Assembly (NCBI GenBank): GCA_905234205.1
Contig: CAJOGG010000005.1
Coordinates: 1-18,470, forward strand
Direction of reading: 5' to 3'
Length of the DNA: 18,470 nucleotides
From: an uncultured Synergistales bacterium
GTDB taxonomy: Bacteria > Synergistota > Synergistia > Synergistales > Aminobacteriaceae
The notes under the pieces are model-generated. The model searched no databases, was not told where the DNA came from, and saw only the letters and a program-made list of their open reading frames with translations. A program made the translations under genes and the position numbers. Below are positions 4,786 through 18,470 of this stretch, piece after piece. Every line of letters begins with the position of its first letter. Positions within the stretch are counted from its first letter, which is position 1.

Positions 4786-4792
4786 TAGGGAA

Positions 4793-5277
4793 TCACCTGC
4801 CTTTATTGTTAATTGATTGTTCTAACTTTTTCGATTCGTCACTGACTATATCAACCCATTCGCTTAATTCTCGTATGGGCATCTGTAACCATTCACGAAT
4901 CGGTGTACCAGTATCAGCTCGCGCTAATCTGACTGCAACTCTTCTGAGGATATTTCGGGGTTGGTCTCCGGGGTTTCTGCTTCTTCGTTCGTCGTAGAGT
5001 CCGTATCGAGTAAAAAACTTAATACCCTATCAACAACTATTCGGAAGTCACGAATTTCTAACTGCTTCAATGTTTCAACGGGCATCTTCAAAGCTCGCGC
5101 CGCAAGCCTGATACAATAGTCACGTGAAGAATCCATTACAACAGCAATTCGCTTATCCTTCATAATTTCCTCTTCAGTGTCAATTAAATCGTCGGGCCTC
5201 AAGTTTTCCGGCTGTAAGTCAAGCTCGCTAACTTCTTCATTATTCCATTTTATCGGCTTTCGTAACTTAATTATCAT
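4793..5277 (-). CDS. Tail assembly chaperone, -1 frameshift product (E/E'-like)
   Basis: Reading residues 1-89 of the chaperone and slipping back one base at the heptamer 5017-5011 gives an open frame of 72 more residues ending at TGA 4795-4793, for a 161-residue product. The extension contains REWLQMPIRELSEWVDIVSD, which looks like the T or E' extension that contacts the tape measure. It has no ATG start of its own near its beginning. It ends 7 bases before the tape-measure ATG, as in other phages. In lambda and P2 the shift happens in a few percent of passages and the ratio of the two proteins matters for tail assembly; that this applies here is inferred. Confidence 0.75.
4924..5277 (-). 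CDS. Tail assembly chaperone, unshifted form (P2 gpE-like)
   Basis: This is a 117-residue acidic protein with a GGGGAG ribosome site just upstream. It lies between tail tube and tape measure, the invariant place of the tail assembly chaperone pair (lambda G/GT, P2 E/E'). The N-terminal segment (IIKLRKPIKWNNEEVSELDL) resembles the E/gp41/gp14 chaperone family: short beta-strand start, then helical MPVETLKQLEIRDFRIVVD. The chaperone coats the tape measure before tube polymerisation. The tail from residue 90 (Thr/Glu/Ser-rich) is low in complexity and would be replaced in the frameshifted form. Identity rests mainly on position plus the frameshift architecture. Confidence 0.8.
   Translation of the reverse strand: MIIKLRKPIKWNNEEVSELDLQPENLRPDDLIDTEEEIMKDKRIAVVMDSSRDYCIRLAARALKMPVETLKQLEIRDFRIVVDRVLSFLLDTDSTTNEEAETPETNPEISSEELQSD
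5011..5017 (-). promoter_or_regulatory. Programmed -1 ribosomal frameshift heptamer U UUU UUA
   Basis: On the minus strand the zero frame reads AGT TTT TTA, giving T TTT TTA in the canonical X XXY YYZ phase. It is the same heptamer as the HIV-1 gag-pol slip site and one base from the P2 E/E' site T TTT TTG. The -1 frame is open from here to 4793. I did not find a convincing stimulatory hairpin downstream. Confidence 0.75.
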
Positions 5278-5292
5278 TCTCGCTCCCCCTGA

Positions 5293-5811
5293 TTACATTC
5301 CTAAATTTTTTCTGACCTGCGTCAAATAATCGACACCGTGAATCTTGTATATGTAGTTCGGTTTATCGATTTCAACAACTTCACTCTCGTTGATCTCAAC
5401 CTTCAAGTAATAGACTTCAATTTCGGTCTGTGTACCCGTTGCGTCATTAATTACGAGATTCCCTAGGTTCGCATTTTTCGTTCTGCCCTTCATAAACACG
5501 TAGATATGAGTGTGTTCGATTATTCCTAAGCTGGAATTAAACTCTTGATGATCCGCGTGCATTTCGATTGTATGAGCATTAGGATTAAGCAATTTCGTGA
5601 TATTCTTCGTGATGGAACGCCACGTCAAACTGACAGTCATCGGCCCAATCTGACCTACACCAGGAGAATCTATACTACCTGCCAAGCCCGCACCTTTTAC
5701 TTCCGATGTCGTGATCTCAATGTTAGGAAAATTTCCCTCCGCCACACCGAGTACATCAGTTTTATTCAGATATACCTTAAACTGTAGACCTTTTTCTGGA
5801 ATTAAGCTCAT
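5293..5811 (-). CDS. Major tail tube protein (P2 FII family)
   Basis: The protein has 172 residues, the same length as P2 gpFII, and sits immediately after the sheath gene with a GGAGTG ribosome site. It begins with a short strand (GLQFKVYLNKTDVLGVAEGNFPNIE) followed by a glycine-rich loop (EVKGAGLAGSIDSPGVGQIGP). It is then mostly beta (MTVSLTWRSI, HTHIYVFMKGRTK, EIEVYYLKVEINESEVVEID), ending in KIHGVDYLTQVRKNLGM, close to the family's C-terminus. It forms the inner tube through which DNA passes, stacked around the tape measure and inside the sheath. Context and sequence agree. Confidence 0.92.
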   Translation of the reverse strand: MSLIPEKGLQFKVYLNKTDVLGVAEGNFPNIEITTSEVKGAGLAGSIDSPGVGQIGPMTVSLTWRSITKNITKLLNPNAHTIEMHADHQEFNSSLGIIEHTHIYVFMKGRTKNANLGNLVINDATGTQTEIEVYYLKVEINESEVVEIDKPNYIYKIHGVDYLTQVRKNLGM

Positions 5812-5826
5812 TGATAATCACACTCC

Positions 5827-7320
5827 TTATGCTGCGGCAGCAAACAACGTCTGCATATAATCCGGGTAAAACTCAACGATACTGATAATTTGTTCCGCAG
5901 GAGGTGCTGGCGTGAAATAAATATGAAAACGCAAAATCCCGCTCAATAAATCCGTAGTAGGATTCTCGCTCGACAAAAATTCAACTCGTCCACCCAAAAT
6001 AACACCAAGATTCTGTAACCCGTTTAATCTCATGTTGTAGCTATTCACGATAGTCCTAATTAATCGCGGTGTCATATTCGAGTCTACTTCCTGCCAAAAC
6101 ATTGTTATGAAGTCATTGCGTACCCAGTCAAACATTCTGCGCACAGAAATAAAACTGTCCTTCACGTCGGTATTAGCAGGATAAATTGCCGTCCTGTTTC
6201 CCCACGCTTTCCAGCCGCCTATGAAATTCAACGGAACTACAACGCCCTGACCGTTCAAATAATTAGCTTCTTCCAAGCCTAAATTAATCTCTTCGCCCGC
6301 AGCGTTCACACACGCATTTATTTGCAACGCATTATTGCTTGGAGATTGATAAGGCACGTCATCATTTCCATTGTCTATGCTGTTCATGAGGCCGATTAAC
6401 TGTGTCGATAAATGATAAACATCATCACCTAATTTGACTTTTGGCCAACAAGCTATCATGTGTTCGTCGGAATAATTGTTGCGATTTTTCCATTCAGCAA
6501 CTTTCGAGTAAACGTCAGCTCCCGTTGAATCGCTTGGAATATCAACAACTGCTTGTGCTGTGAAAATCCCGTTGACGTTCTCAGCTTTGGCAACCATAAC
6601 CGCAGCAACTTCTGGTAACTCGCTGAACTTTGGAGCACCGATTAATCCGGGAATAAGTCTGAATTTCGGGAACACCTGATTAACAAGTTCAAGCCCTGTG
6701 TATTTCCCTGTTACAGCATTCACACCGCCGATTACGTCAGACGCACTCACACTTTCGGGCTTAAGTTTTGTGTATGTGAGGTAAACTTCTGCTTGATTCG
6801 CAAGTGCCCCCGTAGGTATCACGCTGAAAATCAAATTGCCGTCCTCATCATAAGCTAACGAGTAATCCGTATCCTTAGCATACACAACTCTGCCTGTAGG
6901 TTCGTCATCGTCGCCTATGTCGTCGTCAACGTTTTGATTAGCGGCTTCGAAGCCTATTTCAAGAATCTCTGTGCCTAGATCAATTTCGCCTGAAGTAATC
7001 GTGAATTTCTTTGCGGTCGCTAATTCTTTATGCTTGCTTGGGTCTAACACGTTGATCAACACACATGGACTCATACCGTATAAAGCAAACTGCGAGTAAA
7101 TAAACTCACACAATGTATATTTCTCAAAATCCTTGCTAAATCCAAATAACTCCACCGCTTCAGCATATGAATAGCATAACTGCGGCTTATTAACGTTTGA
7201 CGGGTCAGCCAAGTGTATTGGAGCAGTACCAACAATTACGGGCAAGCCTGACTCGCCCTGCGTAGGGGATATTAATGAAGTAGGAACTTCTTGTGTAAAT
7301 ACTCCATGCCTAAATGCCAT
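5827..7320 (-). CDS. Contractile tail sheath protein
   Basis: This 497-residue protein is about the size of the Mu sheath. The N-terminus (FRHGVFTQEVPTSLISP) and the block around residues 365-405 (WGNRTAIYPA, then SVRRMFDWV) are characteristic of the phage sheath family. So is the C-terminal LGVILGGRVEF, then LRFHIYFTPAPPAEQI. The central insertion around residues 135-210 is acidic and variable, as expected for the surface-exposed domain. The sheath contracts to drive the tube through the cell envelope, so its presence makes this a myovirus or a phage-tail-like particle locus. It ends with an alanine run. The start overlaps nothing and lies a few bases after the upstream stop, with a GGAAG ribosome site partly inside that gene. 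Confidence 0.95.
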   Translation of the reverse strand: MAFRHGVFTQEVPTSLISPTQGESGLPVIVGTAPIHLADPSNVNKPQLCYSYAEAVELFGFSKDFEKYTLCEFIYSQFALYGMSPCVLINVLDPSKHKELATAKKFTITSGEIDLGTEILEIGFEAANQNVDDDIGDDDEPTGRVVYAKDTDYSLAYDEDGNLIFSVIPTGALANQAEVYLTYTKLKPESVSASDVIGGVNAVTGKYTGLELVNQVFPKFRLIPGLIGAPKFSELPEVAAVMVAKAENVNGIFTAQAVVDIPSDSTGADVYSKVAEWKNRNNYSDEHMIACWPKVKLGDDVYHLSTQLIGLMNSIDNGNDDVPYQSPSNNALQINACVNAAGEEINLGLEEANYLNGQGVVVPLNFIGGWKAWGNRTAIYPANTDVKDSFISVRRMFDWVRNDFITMFWQEVDSNMTPRLIRTIVNSYNMRLNGLQNLGVILGGRVEFLSSENPTTDLLSGILRFHIYFTPAPPAEQIISIVEFYPDYMQTLFAAAA

Positions 7321-7326
7321 TTAATC

Positions 7327-7590
7327 TCACTTCCTTTTCTTGACAGCTAATGCAGCCGCTTTTGTGCGTATAGTCTCATAGAGTTTTTCCTCGTATGAAC
7401 CGTTCCGCTTTAACTTGGCTCTGACTTCCCATAATGAATCGATCGGGACTATCAAGGCTTTCACTTCGGGGATTTTATTTATTGCGTCTTCAACATTCGG
7501 TGGTAAGCCGTCCACAAACACCTGAGACTCTTGCAAACCTAGCGATAAAACATTCGGGCCTGCGTAAACTACTCTCGTATCTTCGTTCAT
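7327..7590 (-). CDS. Small protein of unknown function upstream of sheath
   Basis: An 87-residue reading frame fits tightly between the tail completion-like gene and the sheath gene, in the same direction. It starts MNEDTRVVYAGPNVLSLGL and ends in a lysine-rich helix. The pattern YxGP...LGL...VFxDGLP followed by IPEVKALIVPIDSL suggests a small beta-strand domain followed by a helical tail. In Mu a short gene (gp38) sits at the same place before the sheath, but I do not see a clear sequence match to that family. It is probably a virion morphogenesis factor. The annotation is positional only. Confidence 0.65.
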   Translation of the reverse strand: MNEDTRVVYAGPNVLSLGLQESQVFVDGLPPNVEDAINKIPEVKALIVPIDSLWEVRAKLKRNGSYEEKLYETIRTKAAALAVKKRK

Positions 7591-7601
7591 CTTCTCAACT
7601 C

Positions 7602-8171
7602 CTAATAATCGTAATTATTTGGCATTAAAGGCCGTGCGATTTCCCATACTGTATTCATATAGCCTAAGAAATATGGCCAGTCCTGCTCCTGTGTTAATCC
7701 GCTCGTCATTGGCATATCAAGCCTGTATCTTCCTTCAAGAATCCGTGCGGGCATCGTCAATAAATCCTGCCTTACTTTCTCAAGAATGTTGTACACATCG
7801 CGATAGCCCTGACAGTCTTTTGACTCGACGTATGATTCTTTCTCTTTGTCATAAACACCGTCGTAAATGCCCACGATAATTTGAACTGCTGCACGCGCCT
7901 GATCCAGCGAGCCTTCTTCCTTGTCCGTGACCTCCCCCAATTTCACAATGACACAGGGAAAATTACTCTCAATATCTGTAGCTGTATATCCTTGAGGGAC
8001 TATGCTCTGCTTATCTGATTTTGGCTTTACTGTTGCGCCTGAAGGTTGAGGGAGATATTGCGGAAACACCTTAACCGTTTGTAACAATCCTGATTTTGAC
8101 GGTAGCTCGTAATCCTTGAACAAGTTTGTGAAACGTGTAACTAATGCATCAAGTAAATTTAGCTCAATCAT
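7602..8171 (-). CDS. Tail completion / terminator-like protein
   Basis: The chosen start is the ATG at 8171 (MIELNLLDALVTRF) because AAAGGAG lies six to seven bases upstream. An in-frame ATG at 8234 that overlaps the previous stop has no ribosome site and would add 21 residues. The 189-residue product has an N-terminal helix and then a mixed region with IESNFPCVIVKLGEV, ARAAVQIIVGIYD and GYRDVYNILEKVRQDLL. The end reads PYFLGYMNTVWEIARP. This alternation, together with the position between the Z-like protein and the sheath, fits the tail terminator or gp37-like class that caps the tail and joins it to the head. Family assignment is by pattern and position, not by a strong motif. Confidence 0.65.
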   Translation of the reverse strand: MIELNLLDALVTRFTNLFKDYELPSKSGLLQTVKVFPQYLPQPSGATVKPKSDKQSIVPQGYTATDIESNFPCVIVKLGEVTDKEEGSLDQARAAVQIIVGIYDGVYDKEKESYVESKDCQGYRDVYNILEKVRQDLLTMPARILEGRYRLDMPMTSGLTQEQDWPYFLGYMNTVWEIARPLMPNNYDY

Positions 8172-8230
8172 TTTGACTCCTTTATCCAGTGCCCATAAAC
8201 CCGTGGCAACTCTCATGTATGGCTTGTATC

Positions 8231-8830
8231 TCATAACAGAATACCCACGCGCTTTAACTCATGTTCTAGTCTATTGTTAAAAACTTCACGCGCACTCTTT
8301 TCTGCTTCATTAACAGTATTTTTGTTTTTCATCATCTGTGGAATTGACGGGCTCATTAACATTCTTAAACTTTTGTCGTCTCGGATAAACGCACGCTTAT
8401 TTCCATGTCGATTTATTAAGAATGCTAATGGTATTGGTTTCAATCCGCCTGCCTGCTTAACTGCACCTCTAAAACTTCCCGGTTTCGTTGGTGTACTTTT
8501 AGGCGTGAATGCAAATTTAGTTAATGGCTGACGGTGTCCCCTAGAAATTATTAGCCCGTGCATTTGTCCGCCATATGATCTTTTCAGAGTTATGCTTGAG
8601 CGAATATCCTTTTGCTTCGTGAAATATTTTTCCGCCGTCTCTCGAATGCTCACCGTTTTAAAATTTTCCAATGAACGATTGACTGCAAGAGAAATTGCTT
8701 TCTTTATTTTGTCGGGCGCGTGGTAAAGATATATCCCTGCTCTAACAAGTGGAGTCCTGCTAAACGATATATTAATAAACCCGTTACCAGGAGTATTTTG
8801 AGGAGGTACTACCCATATTTTGTCAGGCAT
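8231..8830 (-). CDS. Prophage minor tail protein Z-like
   Basis: The 199-residue basic protein has the layout of the gpZ / HK97 gp10-like class. An N-terminal helical segment (KIKKAISLAVNRSLENFKTV) is followed by ETAEKYFTKQKDIRSSITLK, then a beta section (GLIISRGHRQPLTKFAFTPK). A short section with PIPLAFLINRHG leads to a C-terminal helix (ARDEV-like: EKSAREVFNNRLEHELKRVG). These proteins act at the head-tail connection or tail terminator stage. The start codon overlaps the stop of the previous gene by one base (TAATG) and the stop overlaps the next open frame, showing tight translational coupling. Confidence 0.75.
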   Translation of the reverse strand: MPDKIWVVPPQNTPGNGFINISFSRTPLVRAGIYLYHAPDKIKKAISLAVNRSLENFKTVSIRETAEKYFTKQKDIRSSITLKRSYGGQMHGLIISRGHRQPLTKFAFTPKSTPTKPGSFRGAVKQAGGLKPIPLAFLINRHGNKRAFIRDDKSLRMLMSPSIPQMMKNKNTVNEAEKSAREVFNNRLEHELKRVGILL

Positions 8831-9204
8831 TAGTTATTCGCCTCCAATACAATCCGCCACACTTGATCCTGAATTAAACTAGCCTCCGCGATTGTGCATA
8901 ATCTCCCGTCAACCCTCAATGACTGTTCAGCAGCAAACACACCTTCAATTTCTTGTGCCCGACAATATAGAACCGCTCGACTTTTGCTCAAGCCTACGGG
9001 GTCGTTATGATCTGCTAGATTTAAGTTTATTGTTTGTATACGTGTGTCTGATGTTAGGATTGAAAGGATTTTACGGCCGTCTATATCATGATAGCGTGCG
9101 AACTCGGAATTATTGAACCATACTGCGTTGTCGTCAAGGTCATGTGCTAGAAAATCAATAAACGTTCTCCTTCGTGCGTAAATATCATGAATCGACTTTA
9201 GCAT
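8830..9204 (-). CDS. Head-tail adaptor (lambda FII-like)
   Basis: The open frame reaches up to 9366, but its first 54 codons lie over the preceding 65-residue gene in another frame and read as an Arg/Leu-rich shadow, so I place the start at the ATG at 9204 (MLKSIHDIYARRR). That ATG overlaps the upstream stop by 20 bases. An ATT codon at about 9165, just after AAGGAG, is a less orthodox alternative. The 124 residues contain DNAVWFNNSEFARYHDIDG and a beta-rich C-terminal half ending QDQVWRIVLEAN. This pattern of an NxxEFA...IDG motif and strands is seen in small phage neck or attachment proteins at this map position. Confidence 0.65.
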   Translation of the reverse strand: MLKSIHDIYARRRTFIDFLAHDLDDNAVWFNNSEFARYHDIDGRKILSILTSDTRIQTINLNLADHNDPVGLSKSRAVLYCRAQEIEGVFAAEQSLRVDGRLCTIAEASLIQDQVWRIVLEANN

Positions 9205-9382
9205 TTTCCGAAGTTGGCTCTGGAATTTTCGTAGCCTTAGCTTTCTTGGTTGGAGTCGTCTCAATTGCTTCCGCCAAACGCATCTTAACAAGTTCCTGCG
9301 CTCCAGCGGAATCAGGAAGAACATCACCTGATCTATATATTCGTGATCCAGAAATAAATTTACCATGTCTTAACACGTACAT
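9185..9382 (-). CDS. Small head completion protein (lambda FI position)
   Basis: A 65-residue protein starts at the ATG immediately after the capsid stop (TAAATG junction). It begins with a compact beta segment (MYVLRHGKFISGSRIYRSGDVLP) and a helix with QELVKMRLAEAIE. The tail is Lys/Thr/Pro-rich and charged. Short proteins with a GxxY..GDxL..A..LV..G/R.A pattern are common directly after lambda-type capsid genes and are annotated as head-tail connector or head DNA stabilisation proteins. No catalytic function is expected. Confidence 0.6.
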   Translation of the reverse strand: MYVLRHGKFISGSRIYRSGDVLPDSAGAQELVKMRLAEAIETTPTKKAKATKIPEPTSENAKVDS

Positions 9383-10450
9383 TTACGCCGCCCCCGTGAT
9401 AACGCCTTTCAGCACATACCAGCTCTTCAAGTCATGAGGCATTGGCAACGGACGTGAAGCTATCTCGATAAATTTCTGTGAAGGGTTTTCTGTAATCCAT
9501 GTTCGCGGAATGTACTCGCCAATTCTCGTCACAAAGTTTTCGGTTCTCTTGTCAATCTGCGTAACTGCTCCGTAAAGAATCGAATTTTGCTCGCTGCTTG
9601 ATTGTAGTATTACCGTCTCGGGGTCAACCAACGGCTTTAATTTCGGGATACCTTGTTCGTCCTTGTCTTCCTCGTCGCGATACCACTCATTGTACATAAG
9701 AATATCCAACGAAGCCCCGGGAACGATCATGCGGCCAATATAATGCACACCGCTTTCCAGTTCCGCAGGCTTAATTTCTCCCATAAAGACGCGCCTATTG
9801 TCTAATTGTTCCTTGAATTTCTTGTTACGCAAGAGCATTGCCACAGCGTCCCTCCCCAAAATTGCCATATCAGGATTAATGCCGTCCTTGCTCATTTCGA
9901 TAACAATATCAGACAATTGTTCGCATATATCGAAATTTTCTGTCCACCTGTCTGACGCGTCAACAACTGCCACATTCTCAAAGCCATAATCAACGACTTC
10001 ATTAACTCCAACGCCTTTGATTATTAACTTTCCGTCTTGCTTAACACGGGCACACATATATTCTTCACGGCGCGTAATCAAGTCTTGCAAATACAAAATA
10101 TCTTCAGCGGCAATTTTCGCGGCCCTCTCGTCTGGCGTAATGTCAGAGTTCCATTCAGCTTCGCCAAGCAATTTTTGTGTCAGAGTGTCATTCGTAATAA
10201 TTCTGTTCGGAGCTATATACGGTGTTGAATAAGTTTTAAGTGAGTATTCGTCGCGGTCTATTGTCTCTGAACCTAATCGCGGATTAACATACGGTGCTAA
10301 CCTGCGTCTGCTCTCATAAAATTCAAAGCTGACTTTCTCGTTTGGAAACATTACGTGATTCGTAAAGAATCTGTTCTTGAAAAACGTCCTAAGCGGTGGT
10401 GCTTTCTTAATAACTCCCGCTAAAAATTTTGGCTCGTAATAATTTCTCAT
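9383..10450 (-). CDS. Major capsid protein (lambda gpE family)
   Basis: The 355-residue product is close to lambda gpE (341). It opens with a hydrophobic or aromatic helix region (PPLRTFFKNRFF) and MFPNEKVSFEFYESRRRLAPYVNPRLGS, the region typical of gpE where residues near the N-terminus read as ...APxVxPxxxG. A central helix has DLITRREEYMCARV. Later sections include SDIVIEMSKDGINPDMAILGRDA, GEIKPAELESGVHYIGRM and the C-terminal LKSWYVLKGVITGAA. It forms the icosahedral shell after cleavage-linked maturation. A GAGGGAG ribosome site lies just upstream of the ATG, consistent with high expression. Confidence 0.92.
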   Translation of the reverse strand: MRNYYEPKFLAGVIKKAPPLRTFFKNRFFTNHVMFPNEKVSFEFYESRRRLAPYVNPRLGSETIDRDEYSLKTYSTPYIAPNRIITNDTLTQKLLGEAEWNSDITPDERAAKIAAEDILYLQDLITRREEYMCARVKQDGKLIIKGVGVNEVVDYGFENVAVVDASDRWTENFDICEQLSDIVIEMSKDGINPDMAILGRDAVAMLLRNKKFKEQLDNRRVFMGEIKPAELESGVHYIGRMIVPGASLDILMYNEWYRDEEDKDEQGIPKLKPLVDPETVILQSSSEQNSILYGAVTQIDKRTENFVTRIGEYIPRTWITENPSQKFIEIASRPLPMPHDLKSWYVLKGVITGAA

Positions 10451-10461
10451 GCTCGCTCCCT

Positions 10462-10875
10462 CTATTCGTGTATATGCCTCAAGAAAATTTTGTGTATCCT
10501 CAAAATTTCACGAACCGCTTCAACGATTTCTTCATGGTCATCGTCTTCACCTTCAAACGGGAAAATGACTCGTGCGTCGTTGAAATCCCCACCGAAATAC
10601 GCAGGTACTTCAGCAAATTCATTTTCGCCAATTACTATATCGTCGCAAAGAATACACATGTTCGCAGCCGTTGATAATCCAGCCTGTGTTGACGCTACAT
10701 AACCATCAGAGCCAGCCATTAACAGCGTGCCTCGTTTGAACGTTCCAGCAGAAGCAATTCTGATTAGGTCAATATCTGCAATTCCCTTATTGCCAGCGAT
10801 TAATTCATCAGGTGGTGGGACTACAATTTCATTATTATTTACCAGTTGAACTTCAACCTGTATCGGATCGGCCAT
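10462..10875 (-). CDS. Head decoration protein (lambda gpD-like)
   Basis: A 137-residue protein lies between protease and capsid genes, the place of lambda D. The section IRIASAGTFKRGTLLMAGSDG followed by ANMCILCDDIVIGENE and VPAYFGGDFN matches the decoration protein family, which has a kRGtLL....G motif and ends a beta fold with a VY..G.FN-like strand. The acidic stretch EGEDDDHEE and a C-terminal amphipathic helix (VEAVREILRIHKIFLRHI) are additions that make it longer than lambda gpD (110). The ATG shares one base with the protease stop. The protein trimerises on the expanded capsid to stabilise it. Confidence 0.85.
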   Translation of the reverse strand: MADPIQVEVQLVNNNEIVVPPPDELIAGNKGIADIDLIRIASAGTFKRGTLLMAGSDGYVASTQAGLSTAANMCILCDDIVIGENEFAEVPAYFGGDFNDARVIFPFEGEDDDHEEIVEAVREILRIHKIFLRHIHE

Positions 10876-11234
10876 TAGTGAATCCCTCTCATTCTGTTCA
10901 TTTCGTTAAGTACTAAACTCATCGCGACTTCTCTTTCTGTGTTAGCATTCGGGGTAATATGCGGCGATAAAGCCCCATTAACTGCGCCCGCGTCTTGGTG
11001 CAATGCGTTCATCTTTGCCGTTACGCCATCAGCCTTCAAAAGTTCCACAGCTATATCGCGTACATCTCTAGGCTCTTCGTATTTGGCCTTCGCAATTATC
11101 GATTCACGACCGGGAGCGTTAAGATCGTCAAGAGCTTTGAGCCTCTCACGTTCTGTGTTCACCGCAGCATTCCTAATCTCGTTAACAAAATCAGGATATG
11201 CAGCTTCTAATTCCGTTACATTCTTAATATCCAT
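10875..11234 (-). CDS. Probable nested scaffold protein (lambda Nu3-like), internal in-frame start
   Basis: Inside the protease gene, Met234 (ATG at 11234) is preceded 11 bases upstream by a perfect AAGGAGG ribosome site at 11252-11246, unusual in the middle of a coding region. From there an in-frame 119-residue product shares its C-terminus with the protease. It is charged and mainly helical (VTELEAAYPDFVNEIRNAAV, TERERLKALDDL) and ends ANTEREVAMSLVLNEMNRMRG. Lambda makes its scaffold Nu3 from exactly such an internal start within gene C. That the site is used here is inferred from the ribosome site and the lambda parallel; the spacing is slightly long. Confidence 0.6.
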   Translation of the reverse strand: MDIKNVTELEAAYPDFVNEIRNAAVNTERERLKALDDLNAPGRESIIAKAKYEEPRDVRDIAVELLKADGVTAKMNALHQDAGAVNGALSPHITPNANTEREVAMSLVLNEMNRMRGIH

Positions 11235-11933
11235 TTCGCTTTTATCCTCCTTAGATTTTGGCTTAGGGTTGAAATTCACAAAGTGTTTAGGCATCTTTCC
11301 GCACAAAGATTCGTCTGCACGAGCGAAACCGAAACCATTGCTATAAATTATTGCGCCCTTATTTGCCACTGCAGCAATTTCAACAGCTTCCGCAACTTCA
11401 TCACAGAATTTCAGATCATGCGCTTCGGTTGCAGTCAGCCAGGTCTCGTTGTCCATCATGTCAATTAACTTGTCGCGGGGTTGGCCTGTTTTTGCGGCGT
11501 AAGCTCCTACGATTAAGTCGCGTATTTTGTCTAGTACGTCCGCTGTATCTCTCATGTCCTTAGCTTCTCCGACGACTCCACCAGCAGGGTTATGAATCAT
11601 CATCAAAGAATTTTCGGGCATAATGATTTTGTCGCCAGCCATCGCAACCATGCTCGCAGCACTTGCCGCTAGACCGTCTACACGTACAGTTACCGTCGCA
11701 GGGTGTGACTTCAGATAGTTGTACATTGCCTGAGCCTGAAATACGTCGCCACCGTAGCTGTTGATTCTTAACGTGATATTCTCAATTTTCCCGAGTGCCT
11801 TGATTTTGTTGATGACACTTTTAGCAGAAACATAGCCCCATTGTTCGCTGTCGAAATCTGCTATTACGTCGTACAGAAAAACTTCAGCTTCGGTATCACT
11901 CTGATTTGTTACCTTCCACACTTTTGCCTTCAC
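10875..11933 (-). CDS. Head maturation protease (ClpP / lambda gpC-like)
   Basis: Of 352 residues, the first 190 or so form a ClpP-like serine protease. It has INSYGGDVFQAQAMYNYL (oxyanion-hole glycines), GLAASAASMVAMAG with nucleophile Ser94, and MMIHNPAGG with catalytic His114. A DNETWLTATEAHDL section follows where the third residue should lie. From residue 234 a helical, charged scaffold-like region follows. The enzyme removes scaffold and trims portal or capsid during prohead maturation. It begins at a GTG 38 bases inside the portal gene end, with AAGGAGA directly before it. A stop in its frame just upstream excludes a much longer start. The C-terminal part is probably also made separately from an internal start. 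Confidence 0.9.
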   Translation of the reverse strand: MKAKVWKVTNQSDTEAEVFLYDVIADFDSEQWGYVSAKSVINKIKALGKIENITLRINSYGGDVFQAQAMYNYLKSHPATVTVRVDGLAASAASMVAMAGDKIIMPENSLMMIHNPAGGVVGEAKDMRDTADVLDKIRDLIVGAYAAKTGQPRDKLIDMMDNETWLTATEAHDLKFCDEVAEAVEIAAVANKGAIIYSNGFGFARADESLCGKMPKHFVNFNPKPKSKEDKSEMDIKNVTELEAAYPDFVNEIRNAAVNTERERLKALDDLNAPGRESIIAKAKYEEPRDVRDIAVELLKADGVTAKMNALHQDAGAVNGALSPHITPNANTEREVAMSLVLNEMNRMRGIH

Positions 11934-13476
11934 TCTCCTTTATTTCATCGCCGGGTGTATTCGTAAATCCGGCCTCACGTCGCATAGTTTCTTCCTTGAT
12001 TCTCTGACGGTGATTCAATTCCCAGTCGCCTCCGGTTAATTCTGCCGTCTCACGTTGACGAGTGCTAAATCCGTTTTCCACCCGCAACACAGCCGCTTTA
12101 ACTTCCGCCACTGGGTCAAGTTGTCCCTGACTCGGGCCAGTCCAATCAGCCCACGAATACGCATAACGAATCATGGGATCATCAAAGAATCCCGGAGCAT
12201 TTACGCGCCCTTTGAGTACAGCCTCCTGCAACCATTCTTCATAAATAGGCTGACAGAAATTATCAATCCACCATTTACGCCAATAATTAAATAATTTCCA
12301 TGCCTCAAGCAATGCGCCTCGTGAAGCTGAATATGAACTCTCAAAATTTAGGAATAAAACCTCTGCGGGAACTCCCAACGCGCTACCGACTTGACGAACT
12401 AATGATGTTACGAACGCGTCAAAAGCTGAATTAGGACGTGCAGGAGAAATTGACGCAGGCTTAAATCCGTCAGGCAAAATCCCAATAGAGCCGAACATAT
12501 CGCGCTTAGGGTCAGTATTCATGATGTCGGCTTTCCACTCCTCAATTTTCGCCTCTTGTTCCTTCTGCATTTCCAGAGCGTCCGCCAACGATTCCTCCCC
12601 AAGCATGTCAGATACGCTCTCATCGTCAGCCTTATGTGTGAAGAAAATCGCGAATATGCCCCCGATAACAGCAGCCATTAGTTCAGCATCAGAATATCGC
12701 CCCAACTGCTTCAGAGTCTCAATCACTGGAGCTAAAAACGGTACGCCCCTATGCTGTCCGATTCGTTCACGTGGCAAAAGGTGCAAAACATTTCTGCGGC
12801 CTGTCGCTGATCCAAAAGCAGGGACTCGAATATATTTCAACATTGGCTGACTTGTAATTTCGCTATAAGGGTGTCGATTCGTTATGTGATAAGCAATTGG
12901 CTTACCGTCAGAATCAAATTCTACCCCCTCATCAATCAACGCGCCAAAACTTTTAATCGGAGGAGTTCGTAACCTGTCGCCTTCAATCAATGCAACTCGT
13001 AAATCGTAGAGGAAATTTTTTGTACGTCTCATAGGCAACATTACAAGCGCATCACCATTCAGTAACACCGACTTGAAGGCAAGATTTTGTAGTTCATAAA
13101 AATTCAAGCTTCGTGTAATATCGCAGTCCTTACTTTCAGCCCAAAACGCAAATTCACGTTCTGTGTTATGCTCCCACTCTTCGGCCTCGTCCTCGGTTAA
13201 ACCTAAGACTTCTGCGGGGATTCTGCAATTGAGAATCAAGCCTGGCCCGACGGAATTTAAGACTACCCTATCAATAGCTCCACGCCCAAGAGGCCCGCCA
13301 CCAGCGTATAAATCTCGTGAACGTTCGCGTAATAATTCTAGGTTGTCGGAAATATCTTCATGGGGGGATTTTGAACTTGCATTCCAGCCTGACACACTAG
13401 GTTTTAGTCTGCTTGCCCCGTAATGAGAGTAGCCGGAGTTCTTGACGTTGACTTTATTCTTGTGTTTCTTGCTCAC
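11896..13476 (-). CDS. Portal protein (lambda gpB family)
   Basis: The 526-residue product is near lambda gpB (533). The N-terminal basic section precedes LELLRERSRDLYAGGGPLGRGAIDRV, close to the family's R.R.L.rNnp.a.gai.... entry. Later regions include SVLLNGDALVMLP, LIEGDRLRTPP and LHLLPRERIGQHRGVPFLAPVIETLKQLGRY (the gpB hallmark of R.gQ.RGvp.lapvi). The C-terminal LGVPAEVLFLNFESSYSASRGALLEAWK is also conserved in gpB. Twelve subunits form the ring at one capsid vertex through which DNA is pumped. A GTG start lies just past the gpW-like stop with a GGTGGTGA ribosome site. The C-terminal Lys/Glu-rich tail overlaps the protease gene. Confidence 0.95.
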   Translation of the reverse strand: MSKKHKNKVNVKNSGYSHYGASRLKPSVSGWNASSKSPHEDISDNLELLRERSRDLYAGGGPLGRGAIDRVVLNSVGPGLILNCRIPAEVLGLTEDEAEEWEHNTEREFAFWAESKDCDITRSLNFYELQNLAFKSVLLNGDALVMLPMRRTKNFLYDLRVALIEGDRLRTPPIKSFGALIDEGVEFDSDGKPIAYHITNRHPYSEITSQPMLKYIRVPAFGSATGRRNVLHLLPRERIGQHRGVPFLAPVIETLKQLGRYSDAELMAAVIGGIFAIFFTHKADDESVSDMLGEESLADALEMQKEQEAKIEEWKADIMNTDPKRDMFGSIGILPDGFKPASISPARPNSAFDAFVTSLVRQVGSALGVPAEVLFLNFESSYSASRGALLEAWKLFNYWRKWWIDNFCQPIYEEWLQEAVLKGRVNAPGFFDDPMIRYAYSWADWTGPSQGQLDPVAEVKAAVLRVENGFSTRQRETAELTGGDWELNHRQRIKEETMRREAGFTNTPGDEIKESEGKSVEGNKSE

Positions 13477-13480
13477 ATGA

Positions 13481-13717
13481 TCACCACCCCGGACGCATTA
13501 TTCTGAATCTCGCTCGATTGTTTAACCTTGCTTCCAAAGCTGATAGTTCGGCCTGTAACTTTGCTATCATTGTTTGAACGTCTTTGAGATTGGCGCGGGT
13601 CAACTTCAGCCCTTCAACCTCGTAAGACTGTCCCGACAAAATAGCCGCCTCTGCATTGATATACAACTCCAAACGGGATTCAGCTACGTATATTCGTTCC
13701 TTAATCGTTGTCCTCAT
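13481..13717 (-). CDS. gpW-like head-tail joining protein (DUF6148-like)
   Basis: The 78-residue protein sits directly before the portal gene, as lambda W does. It has an N-terminal helix (ERIYVAESRLELYINAEAAI), a turn with LSGQSYEVEGLKLTRANL and a C-terminal helix (KDVQTMIAKLQAELSALEARL) followed by a basic end. This is the gpW fold pattern: helix, short beta hairpin carrying a modified S/T-x-x-DL motif, helix. The ribosome site is weak (GGGTAA), and the gene starts only 14 bases after the hairpin and T run of the upstream cassette, as if the insertion displaced its original leader. Confidence 0.75.
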   Translation of the reverse strand: MRTTIKERIYVAESRLELYINAEAAILSGQSYEVEGLKLTRANLKDVQTMIAKLQAELSALEARLNNRARFRIMRPGW

Positions 13718-13730
13718 CTAAATTTACCCA

Positions 13731-13757
13731 TAAAAAAAGCTCCCTTAATGGGAGCTA
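13731..13757 (-). terminator. Rho-independent terminator of the accessory cassette
   Basis: On the minus strand AGCTCCC, loop ATTAA, GGGAGCT is followed directly by seven T residues. The seven-base-pair perfect stem and T run are classic. It lies 20 bases after the stop of the membrane protein gene and just before gpW, so late transcription from the terminase side has to read through it. Confidence 0.85.
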
Positions 13758-13776
13758 CGAAAACATTAATGAAATG

Positions 13777-14259
13777 TTATTGGGCTAGTTGTATTAGCGC
13801 ATGTCCAATACGTGTCCATCCACCGGTTGCAAGTAATAGCAAAATACCAGCAGCAAAGAAGAGAAATGAAGCAAAAACTCCCTGCCAGACTCCGTACATG
13901 AAACCTTTAGGACGCAAACTCACCAATAATTCATTCACTTTAGCATCATATTCCGATTTATTCTGCTTGTTTATTTCTTCAAGTTCCGATGTGAATGATT
14001 GTTCTAGGAAATCTCTCAATATGCTTACTGCTCGATCTTGATAGAAACGCAACTGTATTTCCGACTCGGCATTTTCCATAAATGACGCAAGATCAATATC
14101 ACTCGGTGGACGATCATTCGCAGTGGTAAAGCGTTTAATTTTCTCGATTTTCTGTTGCTTGTATATGGCGTAGGCAATTTGTCCAACTAAATCATCCTCA
14201 CCATGAACAAGCAGGCTATAGACAGTACTATAAGGTCTATGTTCCATAATGTCACTCAT
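13777..14259 (-). CDS. Accessory (moron) protein with C-terminal membrane helix, unknown function
   Basis: The open frame extends up to 14406, but that part overlaps the preceding 57-residue gene. I therefore place the start at the ATG at 14259 (MSDIMEHRPYS), preceded by GGAG and overlapping the previous stop (ATGAGTGA). The 160 residues are a cytosolic domain (YSTVYSLLVHGEDDLVGQIAY, then AIYKQQKIEKIKRF, then helices rich in Glu, Ser and Gln to about 112) and one strongly hydrophobic helix, residues about 123-147. A short C-terminal segment follows. The protein has no place in head assembly and sits as an insertion between terminase and gpW. It could be a superinfection-exclusion or lysogenic-conversion factor or a membrane-active toxin. 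I do not recognise a named family. Confidence 0.75.
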   Translation of the reverse strand: MSDIMEHRPYSTVYSLLVHGEDDLVGQIAYAIYKQQKIEKIKRFTTANDRPPSDIDLASFMENAESEIQLRFYQDRAVSILRDFLEQSFTSELEEINKQNKSEYDAKVNELLVSLRPKGFMYGVWQGVFASFLFFAAGILLLLATGGWTRIGHALIQLAQ

Positions 14260-14425
14260 CAGTATTCTTTCTCCATGCACGAGATAAAGCATCAGAAATC
14301 TCTTGTTTTGTCTTACGTTCCACATAAAAACGAGCTTTCGGCGATATGATGCGTGAAGAAAATCGTCCTGATACCATTTGTGAATTAACTTGTTCGATAA
14401 GTTCACGACTAAAATGCGTACTCAT
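14252..14425 (-). CDS. 57-residue first gene of the accessory cassette, unknown function
   Basis: A perfect AGGAGG lies six bases before the ATG at 14425. The product begins MSTHFSRELIEQVNSQMVSG, continues FSSRIISPKARFYVERK and ends with an EISDALSRAWRK helix. It is basic and probably folds as helix, beta strands, helix. It overlaps the next gene by eight bases, so the pair is almost certainly co-translated. A small basic first gene coupled to a membrane protein resembles antitoxin-toxin order, but no antitoxin family is evident to me. It is too short for usual gene-length cutoffs, yet its ribosome site is the strongest in this part of the window. Confidence 0.7.
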   Translation of the reverse strand: MSTHFSRELIEQVNSQMVSGRFSSRIISPKARFYVERKTKQEISDALSRAWRKNTDE

Positions 14426-14469
14426 GGGCAACCTCCTATATGTAAATTTTATATCATGAATTATCGGTA

Positions 14470-14478
14470 ATTATAGCA
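14470..14478 (-). promoter_or_regulatory. Extended -10 promoter of the accessory cassette
   Basis: The minus strand reads TGCTATAAT, a perfect extended -10 element (TGnTATAAT), beginning two bases after the terminase stop codon and about 45 bases before the ATG of the 57-residue gene. No TTGACA-like -35 is present at 16-18 bases, which extended -10 promoters do not need. A second AT-rich stretch (GATATAAAAT, 14455-14446) lies downstream. Confidence 0.65.
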
Positions 14479-14479
14479 T

Positions 14480-16393
14480 TCATATTCTCAGTCCGCGTCT
14501 CATAAACCCTGATGAAATACCGCGCTTCGTAATAGTTTTCTTGACCTCGGGAACTTTCTTAGCCTCTGGCGTTTTCGCTTCGGGTTGCTTCTCCTGAATA
14601 ACTGGCTGCTTCAATTTCGGTATTTGTAAATTTTCCGTACGCTTCGATCGACGACGCTTATGTGCCTCAAAATTAGGGTTAAATAATTCGATTGCCCCTG
14701 TGGCATAAACTCGTGTGTCTAATGGCTCATTGCGAATCCCTTCAGCTCGAGGTACCCACGTTATAGTATCTCGCCCACGAACTCGTTTAACTTCCATGCG
14801 TTCAGATAATAAACCCTTGAAGTACACTGAATCATAACCGCGATGAGCGTTCTTTGCGTCCAACGGAAAATGGCAAAATCCCGCGCCGCGATTCTCAACC
14901 TTCAAACGCGAAAATAATACGCCCTTGATCGTCGTAACTCCTAGTGTGAAAAGTGTTACGTGCCTGCGATTATTCCTAGTAGGTTTGCTCACTGACGGCA
15001 TTCCCTCACGTCCACGTCCTACAATCGGGAAAATATTTCGTCTGACTCTTGGCTTACAGAATTTATATACTTCATCAGTGAAGTGTCCTGCGCTATCAAT
15101 ACATACGCATGAAAGCCCTAGCTTGTCGCCGTTCGCATAAGTCCATGTTTTCGAGAGAAAATCATCTAACGCCTGCCATATGTCATTTTGTCCGGGGTCG
15201 CCGTAAAAGATTCTGTATTCGATTCCCCAGCTCTCATAGCCAATGCCCCAGCCGACAACTTCACATTCAAGTCTGTTATCCTGTGTATCTATGCCACATG
15301 TTAAGACTAATACGCCGTCAGGTAATTCAGCGTTGTATTTCTCCCTGTGAGATTCAAGAGCTTCAACTTCAATTGCACCGCTCGTATTTTCGTAGGGCAG
15401 TCCTAAAACTGTATTCCACCAGCCCTTGATAGCCTCTTCGCCATTCTTGAATGCCCGTTGGTAATCCTCTATCAAGCCTCGCCACGTAGCCCAAGGTGAC
15501 GCAAAAGCATTCATGTGAAAGCCGCGAATCTTCGTTACTTCAGGTTTACTGGCTATCCATTCCCCGTCTTCCTGTCCGGCCTTCCATTCAACTTCATTGT
15601 GAACAGCTCCGCACTTAACGCACTTCATAACAGGTTCGGGCAAGTCCTTATACAGAATCTGATCCCAAGAATACGGCTGATATTCTCCACAAGTCGGGCA
15701 TGGCACACACCATTCTTCTTGACTGCTTAACAGAAATTCCTTGTAGATATTTGAACTTTGCAAAAGAGTCGGTGTGCTTACCATTAATATGCGACGATTC
15801 CAGAAATTTTGTGTACGTTTTATTGCAAGCGTTAATGGGTCGCCTTCCTTGCCTGATGAGGGCGGGTAACGGTCAACCTCGTCACACAATAAAACTCTAA
15901 TCGGCCTCGCGGCTAATGACACTGGTGAATTTGTAGCGGCTATAGTTATGTGTCCACCCGTGAATTTCTTGTGCATCAACGTATTTCCAGAATCACGGCT
16001 GCGCGGGTCTTTGACTTTTCCCTGTAATACTGGCGTGTCGCGAATCATCGGTGCTAACCTGTCCTTGGAAAAGCTCTGCCCCATGTTCAACGTAGGATTG
16101 AGAACTAAAATCGGGCTTGGCTCTTGGTCAATGAAATAACCAATAACGTTAAGCAAAATTTCAGTCTTGCCTACTTGTGCCGCAGTCATAACTACAACGC
16201 GCTCTATCAACGGATCAGACACTGCGTTCATAATTTCACGCTGATATTCTGCTCGTGAAGTCCTCCATACACCCGGCTCTGCTGATGCCTCCGGAGGGAT
16301 TCTGCGAAAATTATCAGCCCATTCTGATACAGTCAGGTCAGGTGGTGGAAGCCATAAATTATTTTTCTGGGCTCTGGAATTGTTGTTCGTCAT
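14480..16393 (-). CDS. Terminase large subunit (lambda GpA family)
   Basis: The product has 637 residues against 641 for lambda gpA. It shows the Walker A variant AAQVGKTE (71-78), Walker B RVLLCDE (166-172) and a zinc-ribbon section with Cys232/235 and Cys258/261. The nuclease domain begins with LTCGIDTQDNRLE (metal-binding Asp369 and neighbours) and has CIDSAGH later. It pumps DNA into the prohead by ATP hydrolysis and cuts at the packaging site; GpA relatives usually make cos ends. The start overlaps the end of the small terminase gene by 35 bases. The C-terminus after residue 590 is a Lys/Pro/Glu-rich tail (about 40 residues), probably the part that touches the portal. Confidence 0.96.
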   Translation of the reverse strand: MTNNNSRAQKNNLWLPPPDLTVSEWADNFRRIPPEASAEPGVWRTSRAEYQREIMNAVSDPLIERVVVMTAAQVGKTEILLNVIGYFIDQEPSPILVLNPTLNMGQSFSKDRLAPMIRDTPVLQGKVKDPRSRDSGNTLMHKKFTGGHITIAATNSPVSLAARPIRVLLCDEVDRYPPSSGKEGDPLTLAIKRTQNFWNRRILMVSTPTLLQSSNIYKEFLLSSQEEWCVPCPTCGEYQPYSWDQILYKDLPEPVMKCVKCGAVHNEVEWKAGQEDGEWIASKPEVTKIRGFHMNAFASPWATWRGLIEDYQRAFKNGEEAIKGWWNTVLGLPYENTSGAIEVEALESHREKYNAELPDGVLVLTCGIDTQDNRLECEVVGWGIGYESWGIEYRIFYGDPGQNDIWQALDDFLSKTWTYANGDKLGLSCVCIDSAGHFTDEVYKFCKPRVRRNIFPIVGRGREGMPSVSKPTRNNRRHVTLFTLGVTTIKGVLFSRLKVENRGAGFCHFPLDAKNAHRGYDSVYFKGLLSERMEVKRVRGRDTITWVPRAEGIRNEPLDTRVYATGAIELFNPNFEAHKRRRSKRTENLQIPKLKQPVIQEKQPEAKTPEAKKVPEVKKTITKRGISSGFMRRGLRI

Positions 16394-16844
16394 AGTCTGC
16401 TAATTCTTTTAACGCCTCGTAAATTACGCCCTTCAATTTCTGCTGGATAGCTCGTAAATCTTGCCCCACTAGTTCCGGAGCAATTTTCGTAGGGATTGAC
16501 AATAGCTTAGATTTACAGTTGATGACATTTTCACCCCACGCCATACTGATAGCAGATTTTCTGATTACATCTCCGCGTTGTTCCGCAAGTTCAAGCTCTC
16601 GCAGTTCGGCTTCGGCATTCGTCAAACGAGTTTTTGCTACCATAAGTCCTTTCTTGCCCATCTGACTCCGCCAATAAGCGTGAACAACATCGCCCAAAAC
16701 GTACACGCCATCTTCAACTTTAGGAATAACACCGTCTTCAACGAGCTTGTAAAAAGTACGTTCTGGGAGCCTCAAAAATTCTGCTGCTTCTATCGCTGAA
16801 ACTTCTTCGGCGTAATAATTTTTCCTATTCTTCTTCGGATTCAT
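16359..16844 (-). CDS. Terminase small subunit (Nu1-like)
   Basis: The 161-residue protein starts with a winged-helix segment (SAIEAAEFLRLPERTFYKLVEDG), then GVYVLGDVVHAYWR, then a long helix (ARELEAELRELELAEQRGDVI-type). It ends in LLSIPTKIAPEL and a C-terminal helix region. This is the Nu1 plan: DNA recognition, then dimerisation, then contact with the large subunit. CAGGAGG lies six bases before the ATG. It would recognise the packaging site, expected close by, and hand the DNA to GpA. The overlap with GpA suggests translational coupling. Confidence 0.92.
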   Translation of the reverse strand: MNPKKNRKNYYAEEVSAIEAAEFLRLPERTFYKLVEDGVIPKVEDGVYVLGDVVHAYWRSQMGKKGLMVAKTRLTNAEAELRELELAEQRGDVIRKSAISMAWGENVINCKSKLLSIPTKIAPELVGQDLRAIQQKLKGVIYEALKELADYDEQQFQSPEK

Positions 16845-17166
16845 AAAGCCTCCTGCGTGATTTACCTAGTTTTGCAGAGGTTGAACATGAGTCGGCATGG
16901 TTAGCAAATTGAACCCCTGCAAGCTGAAAATTTCTGTCGCTAAAAAAATCTCGGGCTCAGCGGGCCGAGCGCAACCAAAAATTAGCCTCACAGTACCTTT
17001 TTTCTTTGTCGTCATCGTGGTTTATCTTGTCAAGCCCCTCAAAAATTTTGAATGCGATAAAAGTACAAACTCTAGCATTCGTTTTCGTGAGCTAATCAAC
17101 GATTAACACAGGCTTCACGGATTTACGCCTACCCACCGAATCGCCAAAATTCGCCGACGAATAGAA
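16845..17166. other. Non-coding region upstream of the small terminase; candidate cos / regulatory region
   Basis: No convincing gene lies here. It contains a 47-base imperfect palindrome at 16874-16920, with 12-base arms matching at ten positions and a CATG...CATG inner pair, and a GC-rich hairpin at 16950-16969. There is a short dyad TAATC-AAC-GATTA at 17093-17105, another dyad ATTCG-CCGA-CGAAT near 17149-17162, and a TTGACA -35-like hexamer on the minus strand at 17033-17028 without a good -10. Lambda-type phages carry cos just upstream of Nu1, which makes this the first place to look for it. A late promoter or a repressor site are the alternatives. Confidence 0.5.
16941..16970 (-). terminator. 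GC-rich hairpin with T run, probable terminator
   Basis: On the minus strand CTCGG, a ten-base loop and CCGAG are followed by ATTTTTTT. The stem is only five pairs but GC-rich, and the T run is good. It would end transcripts coming from the recombinase and 63-residue genes before the terminase operon. The same GC-rich dyad in AT-rich surroundings could instead be part of a packaging site. Confidence 0.55.
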
Positions 17167-17358
17167 TCAGGCAATAATATCGCCACTCGGGAACTCCTCA
17201 AACAATGGCGACTCGTCCAATAACAAACTTACAATATTAGGAAAGATTCGTATTCTGTCAGGGTCATACTCAGTTGACTGTGCCACGCGCTTAACAAACG
17301 CTAATAAATCTTGCTTCAAGTCCTGTGTCTCTTCTGCGGTCAAATTAAACTTTGTCAT
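17167..17358 (-). CDS. 63-residue acidic protein of unknown function
   Basis: A GAGGTGA ribosome site lies eight bases before the ATG. The product starts MTKFNLTAEETQDLKQDLL, a helix, and continues with FVKRVAQSTEYDPDRIRIFP and IVSLLLDESPLFEEFPSGD. It is acidic, with no membrane segment or cysteine pattern. It sits between the recombinase and the terminase region and is followed by the 16941-16970 hairpin. It may be an accessory to the recombinase or an early regulatory protein, but the sequence gives no specific hint. Confidence 0.6.
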   Translation of the reverse strand: MTKFNLTAEETQDLKQDLLAFVKRVAQSTEYDPDRIRIFPNIVSLLLDESPLFEEFPSGDIIA

Positions 17359-17500
17359 AAATAATCACCTCATAGAAAGTTATAAGTGAGCAAATGGCCC
17401 GAAACCGTCAGCTATAAAAATCAAAATGTCAGCTTGTTTACCAAATTTCTCCTCCCAAAATCCAGGAGCGGGGGAAGGAGTTACAGGCTCAACATGCCTC
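17359..17500. other. Short intergenic region between recombinase and 63-residue gene
   Basis: These 142 bases contain the ribosome site of the 63-residue gene and a weak CTCCT...AGGAG inverted repeat not followed by T residues, near 17440-17470. I see no clear promoter. It adjoins a recombinase gene, so an attachment site could lie here, but no repeat of it is visible elsewhere in the window. Confidence 0.35.
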
Positions 17501-18127
17501 CTAAATATCCATGCTCAAAATTGCCTCGTCCATGTCATCTTGCGTTATCCCTATGTATGCAAGCGTGATTGCCGGGCTTGAATGATTCAGGAATTTCTGT
17601 ATGAGTTCTATGTTCGTGCCGCTGGTGTATAAAATGTAGCCGAAAGTCTTGCGCAATGAATGTGTGCCAATCTTGTACGTTAGACCACATGCCCGCGCCG
17701 CATTGTTCAACACTCGCCAAGCCTGCTGTTCACGAATCCGATACTGGCCGTCGTGTCCTTGTTTGCGTGACTTGAATAACGGTTCATTCAACACTGCACC
17801 GATTGATTGAGCTTGCTTACGACGTTGACGTATGTATTTACTCAATGCCCTACGCGCTGATGGGTGTAGCATTAAGTCAATGAATTTCCCCGTCTTCTTC
17901 TCTTGAATCTTCAGGCGTTCAACTATCGTCAATCGACCTTTACGATCTATGAAAGCTACGTCACGAACATTCAATCGCACTAAGTCAGAAATTCTCCGGC
18001 CTGTAGCTATTCCAAACTGGAAGAACGCGTAATCCCTCAAATTCCTGTTCCAGAAATAACTCGATATCGCTTCACGGTCTGATGGACTGCGGATCGGCTG
18101 TGTGGTCTTGTTGACTTTCCGCTTCAC
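17501..18127 (-). CDS. Compact tyrosine recombinase (catalytic domain only)
   Basis: The 208 residues carry the full catalytic set of the tyrosine recombinase family: Arg45 in TGRRISDLVRL, a Lys in EKKTGKFIDL (about 78), HSLR at His156/Arg159, His182 in LNHSSP and the nucleophile Tyr191 in ITLAYIGI. The usual N-terminal arm-binding and core-binding domains (about 100-150 residues) are missing, so this is a minimal enzyme. It starts with a GTG overlapping the stop of the preceding Nu1-like gene. It could be the prophage integrase reduced in size, or a recombinase of the type that sits beside terminase genes in some Bacillota phages. The catalytic residues suggest it is active. Confidence 0.88.
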   Translation of the reverse strand: MKRKVNKTTQPIRSPSDREAISSYFWNRNLRDYAFFQFGIATGRRISDLVRLNVRDVAFIDRKGRLTIVERLKIQEKKTGKFIDLMLHPSARRALSKYIRQRRKQAQSIGAVLNEPLFKSRKQGHDGQYRIREQQAWRVLNNAARACGLTYKIGTHSLRKTFGYILYTSGTNIELIQKFLNHSSPAITLAYIGITQDDMDEAILSMDI

Positions 18128-18470
18128 AACTCCTCACTGCCATTCAGAATGTCATAGATTAAGTTTTGAAGCTTAATTCTTGAGGAAGCTGATAATTCAT
18201 CTCCGAACCTACTTGGAATTTCTCGAACTGCCTTGCGTAAATCAGTATCCTTTATATCCCGCTCCATCTTGTCAGCACGATATTTCGCTTGCCTAGCCTT
18301 GGATTCACGCTCCAAAACTTTCGCTTCAAGTAAACGCTTATCTAGGTCGGAAGGTTCATCACTACGGATTGAGCCATTACAAATTCCCTGCAAATATCTC
18401 ACGTAAGCTTGTACGGTCGGCCCAAGATCATAAACTCCTCGCCCAGCCTTCGGAATAATCTTCTGCTTCG
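18124..18470 (-). CDS. Second Nu1-like terminase small subunit / DNA-binding protein, N-terminus outside window
   Basis: The frame is open to the window edge; a GTG at 18402 is only an internal codon, because upstream codons read KAGRGVYDLGPTVQAYVRYL, the segment following the winged helix in Nu1 proteins. A charged helix (LEAKVLERESKARQAKYRADKMERD) and a C-terminal IPSRFGDELSASSRIKLQNL section follow, again Nu1-like. The visible part is 115 residues; the recognition helix would be outside. Its stop overlaps the recombinase start. Since another Nu1-like gene pairs with GpA at 16359-16844, this copy may be an ancestral duplicate, a remnant of a neighbouring phage or a protein working with the recombinase. 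Confidence 0.75.
   Translation of the reverse strand, partial: KQKIIPKAGRGVYDLGPTVQAYVRYLQGICNGSIRSDEPSDLDKRLLEAKVLERESKARQAKYRADKMERDIKDTDLRKAVREIPSRFGDELSASSRIKLQNLIYDILNGSEEL

Follow-up and report, generated by a model that had tools for sequence, protein, structure and literature searches.

Of the phage-borne systems described to date, Tab of Pseudomonas phage JBD26 may be taken as the nearest proven parallel, in position and logic, to the locus considered here; Tab is described as a moron of the terminase region that has its own promoter and protects the lysogen (PMC10884400). In E. coli, the interval between gpA and the portal gene is described as the locus of old, tin and many defence systems (PMC9122126, PMC9519451). 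Here we consider two overlapping open reading frames, ORF1 and ORF2, that lie between the genes for the terminase large subunit (TerL) and a gpW-like head-tail adaptor in an uncultured Synergistales bacterium (NCBI GenBank assembly GCA_905234205.1, contig CAJOGG010000005.1, positions 1 to 18,470 of the forward strand; this whole stretch of 18,470 nucleotides is referred to as the window). The pair is probably an interchangeable cargo module of Synergistaceae prophages that occupies the terminase-gpW slot and likely acts jointly as a membrane-anchored block on competing phages, its kind being best read as an exchangeable exclusion or abortive-infection module.

In type II toxin-antitoxin modules, a small upstream gene overlaps a larger downstream gene, and the small ORF1 likewise overlaps the larger ORF2, here by 8 bases. 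The pair differs from such modules in that Pfam gave no known toxin or antitoxin family among 17 ORF2 and 19 ORF1 members, no DNA-binding family was recognised in ORF1, and the putative effector has a membrane helix. With the membrane proteins of superinfection exclusion, ORF2 shares its membrane location, by prediction. Tab/anti-Tab is a late-operon moron beside the terminase genes that has its own promoter, is transcribed in the prophage and is accompanied by a second small gene; the present pair resembles it in place and in having two genes, and may do so in its expression, whereas it stands behind the large terminase gene, on the same strand, and ORF2 carries a membrane helix (a comparison of descriptions; PMC10884400). 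The old/tin hotspot of P2 also holds small, high-turnover loci between two conserved phage genes (PMC9122126, PMC9519451), and the pair itself occurs there: among 40 loci tested (the 39 viral loci less L074, together with L004 and L027; near-duplicates included), 11 have P2-type portal, terminase and replication-A genes, and in each of these 11 the pair lies between portal and gpA. The window differs in that its slot is the terminase-gpW interval of Synergistaceae and its pair has no useful PADLOC match. Finally, one related prophage (L108/L136) has a CmdTAC-like (PD-T4-9) set in its terminase-gpW slot; CmdTAC comprises three genes, including an ADP-ribosyltransferase-like toxin and a SecB-like chaperone, and is unrelated in sequence to the pair (PMC9519451).

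All elements of the locus lie on the minus strand, at the places given by the original prediction, which had been made from the sequence alone and which also described the overlap and the one C-terminal helix of ORF2 correctly. The upstream border of the slot is the end, at 14480, of the TerL gene (14480..16393; GpA-type, PF20454/PF05876). Directly behind its stop stands an extended -10 promoter-like element, TGCTATAAT (14478-14470), and then an AGGAGG resembling a ribosome-binding site (14437-14432), six bases 5' of the ORF1 start codon ATG at 14425. ORF1 (14425-14252), identified from its reading frame and its selection pattern, encodes a basic 57-residue protein (net charge +4) with two predicted helices and is a putative partner or gatekeeper. 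ORF2 (14259-13777), supported by its frame, a structure model and conserved residues, encodes a 160-residue putative effector with an acidic, helical cytosolic part and a single C-terminal membrane helix. A terminator-like hairpin followed by a T-run (13756-13738) closes the unit, and the gpW-like gene (13481..13717; phrog_118, E 1.2e-17) forms the downstream border. The GC content of the pair is 39.1%, as against 46.0-46.3% for terminase, gpW and portal; the capsid and sheath genes, at 43.2-43.5%, are nearer to the pair.

The terminase-gpW gap appears to be a cargo slot, with variable content between two conserved genes that includes matches to described defence systems, and no description of it was found in the literature searched. 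A search of 43 genomes of the genus found TerL in 19, yielding 30 loci, of which 24 were usable (L126 was dropped as a copy of L120, and L109, L110, L123, L124 and L125 because too little sequence lies behind TerL). The TerL-gpW gap spans at most 231 bases in 12 of the 24, some holding a small open reading frame, and in the other 12 it spans at least 373 bases or no gpW occurs in the readable stretch. These 12 occupied slots hold the pair in three cases (L097, which is the window, L102 and L103) and other material in nine, with library matches to toxin, antitoxin, CmdTAC-like, AriA-like or candidate defence proteins for six of the nine. The other cargo comprises a RelE-like gene (below the Pfam cut-off) with a SecB-like gene in L099, an AAA_15/AriA-like ATPase in L101 (AriA E 3e-28), a partial PDC-M32A-like match in L105 (E 1e-7), an SDH-type protease in L107, the CmdTAC-like set in L108 (PD-T4-9_A E 3e-5, PD-T4-9_C E 1e-16), an ORF1-like gene with a Bro-N/PDC-S13 protein in L115 (PDC-S13 E 7e-74), lysis-like genes, judged by eye, in L116, no recognised gene in L117 and a HicB-like gene in L119. 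This distribution bears out the proposal of a moron-like insertion without a role in head assembly, which would have been contradicted by conservation of both genes at this place in all related phages; the relatives instead have a short gap or other cargo.

The pair itself also varies between closely related phages. In L025, gpW and portal match those of the window at 70.5% and 79.9%, yet ORF2 is just 38% identical to the window protein and 59% identical to the chromosomal ORF2 of L026; alleles have therefore been exchanged at the slot. Several further observations concern the slot and its phage group. In L115/L139 (G016 C157), an ORF1 homologue with 71% identity to the L025 ORF1 (L139 501-686) occupies the slot without ORF2, and the Bro-N/DinD-like protein behind it (L139 734-1582) matches the candidate defence model PDC-S13. 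In L133 (G017 C98, 361-2205), a 166-residue protein that matches no Pfam family stands behind an AriA/AAA_15-like ATPase, and the two are possibly an undescribed two-gene defence system of the terminase-gpW slot. The three genes of the CmdTAC-like set, with PD-T4-9_A- and _C-like members, lie at L136 535-1841 (G033 C23, reversed). In L056/L015 (G038 C46), a pair with an open ORF1 frame and a broken ORF2 lies between the portal and ClpP genes, a second insertion place in this phage group.

The extended -10 element looks like a property of the slot, not of the pair, because nine loci whose cargo falls into five kinds share it and 11 pairs elsewhere lack it. With p-values that are only a guide, since the loci are related and the cuts were chosen after the data had been seen, an exact TGnTATAAT stands 0-3 bases behind the TerL stop in 6 of 12 occupied slots (L097, L099, L102, L103, L105 and L115) and in 0 of 12 short slots (Fisher p 0.014); when one mismatch is allowed, with A2 and T6 of the hexamer kept and the search running from 30 bases before to 60 after the TerL stop, the counts are 11 of 12 and 1 of 12 (Fisher p 0.0001), and an earlier cut of the slot table gave 6 of 9 against 0 of 15 (p 0.0006). 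Addition of L025, L041 and L138 brings the loci with the extended -10 block to nine, and the cargo behind it consists of the pair (five loci), RelE with SecB, the PDC-M32A set, ORF1 with a DinD-like gene, or a DinD-like gene with SecB. A tblastn search picked up no terminase in L025 or L041; ahead of the element, L025 matches the end of the L132 terminase, and L041 does so more weakly. None of the 11 pairs at other sites has a TGnTATAAT within 120 bases before the opening of the ORF1 frame.

The promoter, ribosome-binding and terminator motifs of the window are weak when taken alone, and it is the comparison among loci that appears to lift them above chance. TGnTATAAT occurs twice in the window against 0.81 expected (at least twice in 39 of 200 shuffles), AGGAGG eight times against 6.2 expected, and the region 12500-16500 contains one terminator-like site against a shuffle mean of 3.9; no -35 element was found. 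The second TGCTATAAT of the window, beyond which no further copy occurs, lies at 3275-3283 on the minus strand. A hairpin with a T-run within 110 bases of the ORF2 stop is found in 29 of 65 homologous loci and in 80 of 1300 mononucleotide shuffles, which are the sole control for a count that includes near-duplicate loci. The autonomy that the original prediction had attributed to the pair needs correction: both the extended -10 and the hairpin are conserved in sequence, but the former seems to belong to the slot and precedes four other cargo sets.

Both genes are under purifying selection, with nonsynonymous differences (pN 0.085-0.196) well below synonymous ones (pS 0.398-0.882) in six comparisons each among four related loci. 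A first protein search returned 44 ORF2 proteins, counting that of the window, and a profile search 75. Across 64 aligned sequences, A29, Y30, Y33, K34 and K37 are invariant, and these residues map to helix 24-48 of a structure model (pLDDT 91.5, pTM 0.63) whose helices span residues 13-17, 24-48, 54-64, 67-115, 120-144 and 147-159. The hydrophobic C-terminal helix corresponds to model residues 120-144, and hydropathy predicts one membrane segment, at the C-terminus, for 124 of 126 non-redundant members; the exceptions are P0117, with a different C-terminus, and L088, with a shortened reading frame. The model of ORF1, which is of modest confidence (pLDDT 73.6), consists of two helices. Among 47 non-redundant loci, the charge of ORF1 is positive in 43 and that of the ORF2 part before the membrane helix is negative in 41; such opposite charges fit a complex, without proving one.

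The pair is an unnamed protein family within a known kind of system and, as the original prediction had supposed for this combination of a small basic protein and a membrane protein, is undescribed in the literature and libraries searched (most subscription papers and preprints lay outside the search). Pfam gave no family at usable score for 19 ORF1 or 17 ORF2 members, NCBIfam gave no usable match for the pair, PADLOC models run against the window proteins matched neither ORF1 nor ORF2, and the PDB, searched by sequence and by fold, and BFVD provided no usable relative. In PHROGs, ORF2 matches two clusters of unknown function, phrog_22648 (E 2.8e-11) and phrog_25194 (E 6e-4). Weak matches to ViaA, PHB_acc, LeoBC, nuclear factor 1, BAG6 and AcrIE3 involve single helices or coiled coil and were not used.

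The two genes are closely associated. According to an ORF1 profile trained on matches from the same loci (51, 59 and 59 in three rounds), 59 of 70 loci have an ORF1-like gene immediately before ORF2, compared with 1 of 2794 control regions of those loci. The 70 loci leave out L005-L022 (except as longer copies), L002/L074, L057 (=L024), L055 (=L025), L030 and L036 (cut by contig ends) and L127-L131 (fetched later), and the near-duplicates kept include L058/L059, L068/L069, L086/L087, L067/L072/L076, L027/L083 and L004/L091. Nine of the 11 loci without a profile match (L003, L038, L039, L070, L081, L092, L093, L095 and L096) have a small open reading frame that overlaps ORF2 or ends within 100 bases of it; L052, at a contig end, and L094 have no small open reading frame upstream of ORF2.

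The pair recurs in viruses, plasmids and chromosomes across three bacterial phyla. Within Synergistota, ORF2 is patchily present in 23 of 185 genomes (L143-L163 of this survey are listed only and stand outside the further analyses), and a scan of viral contigs yielded 39 ORF2 loci. Occurrence at non-homologous positions, to which the original prediction had looked, was found in P2-like prophages, filamentous phages, plasmids and chromosomes. Four records of filamentous Vibrio phages contain ORF2 relatives, and the one examined has a small gene upstream. On a Shewanella plasmid, ORF2 relatives stand next to an AbiGi antitoxin gene and two genes away from it; on a Vibrio navarrensis plasmid, a relative lies among genes that resemble integron cassettes. 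On the Acinetobacter plasmid NZ_CP050428.1 (L038 2752-4397), the gene behind an ORF2 relative overlaps it and encodes a TIR domain (PADLOC TIR effector E 3e-37); this may be a variant with three genes. Further relatives occur in Bacteroidota contigs and Synergistaceae chromosomes, several without adjacent phage genes by eye. Same-genus chromosomes (L046-L051 and L053) carry a more distant form of the pair; genes judged pilus-like by eye precede it, except in L050, and an SPFH/Band 7 gene follows it wherever the sequence can be read.

The defence reading is favoured because of the swapped slot cargo, the slot promoter, the defence-linked sites, the pairing, the patchiness, the low GC content, the opposite charges and the Tab precedent. 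In the proposed mechanism, the slot promoter would drive expression of the pair in the lysogen, and the basic ORF1 protein, as antitoxin or gatekeeper, would keep ORF2 inactive by binding to its acidic cytosolic part. When another phage infects the cell, ORF2 would be released or switched; it would then act at the inner membrane, either by damaging the membrane or by halting the newcomer there, and the infection would fail. The putative division of labour between gatekeeper and effector is the least certain step. It is quite possible, if not quite probable, that the pair represents a new, phylum-spanning two-component immune system, in which a basic gatekeeper is joined to a one-helix membrane effector with an unmatched cytosolic fold, that travels on tailed and filamentous phages, plasmids and cassettes and that sits here in a promoter-armed socket behind the terminase at which whole defence systems are swapped among Synergistaceae prophages.

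Several observations weigh against a defence role. Of the nine slots with other cargo, L107, L116 and L117 contain no clear defence gene; PADLOC run over 17 ORF2 members gave three weak, single-member matches (best E 0.0019); L127, the closest Acinetobacter-type relative, has no TIR neighbour, so the TIR gene of L038 is treated as a single case; and a cellular role is conceivable for the copies that neighbour pilus-like and SPFH genes in chromosomes of the genus.

The main rival is plain toxin-antitoxin addiction, which overlaps with the gatekeeper model and which we consider unlikely, though worth serious attention. On this view, ORF1 would serve as antitoxin to a membrane toxin, ORF2, and the pair would mainly prevent loss of the prophage or plasmid; any defence would be no more than a side effect. 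The overlap of the small upstream gene with the larger one is as expected for such a module, as is carriage on plasmids, cassette-like arrays and prophages. ORF2 is broken while the ORF1 frame is open in L047, L056, L087 and L088, ORF1 stands without ORF2 in L115, and an intact ORF2 behind a broken ORF1 was not noticed, although no systematic count was made; this asymmetry is too small to use, because four broken copies are too few when ORF2 is the longer target. The lack of a DNA-binding family in ORF1 and of a toxin family in ORF2 speaks against addiction. Regulator/effector, toxin-antitoxin and exclusion, the roles offered by the original prediction, are not separable by sequence.

Lysogenic conversion of the host surface or envelope, whereby the membrane protein would adjust an envelope function such as pili or membrane domains, is improbable: the same-genus chromosomal homologues, which have pilus-like genes (by eye) on one side and an SPFH/Band 7 gene on the other, point in this direction, but homologues elsewhere lie in unrelated places, and the other cargo of the slot is rich in toxin and defence matches. 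An anti-defence pair that shields the infecting phage from host immunity, which a small phage-borne gene pair at variable slots might suggest, is very unlikely. Least probable of all is a late virion, packaging or lysis function of the phage group, for although the pair shares the strand and place of late genes and some Bacteroidota prophage copies lie near lysis-like genes (by eye), 12 related loci whose terminase-gpW gap is short lack it, and it occurs in filamentous phages, plasmids and chromosomes.

Beyond the slot, the window contains library matches to the GpA-type terminase, a lambda-type portal, a ClpP-like protease, capsid E and a contractile sheath. A tyrosine-recombinase gene (PF00589; window 17501-18127) stands immediately before the terminase genes and is likewise present there in several related loci (L098, L101-L104 and L125).

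If the exclusion or abortive-infection reading is true, a widespread, unnamed two-gene membrane system would join the prophage arsenal and would offer one explanation for the "hypothetical" pairs in P2-like and filamentous Vibrio phages, Bacteroidota contigs and plasmids. The terminase-gpW gap of this rumen-associated prophage group would, likewise if true, be a swap site with a conserved promoter-like element and a source for the systematic collection of unknown cargo genes.

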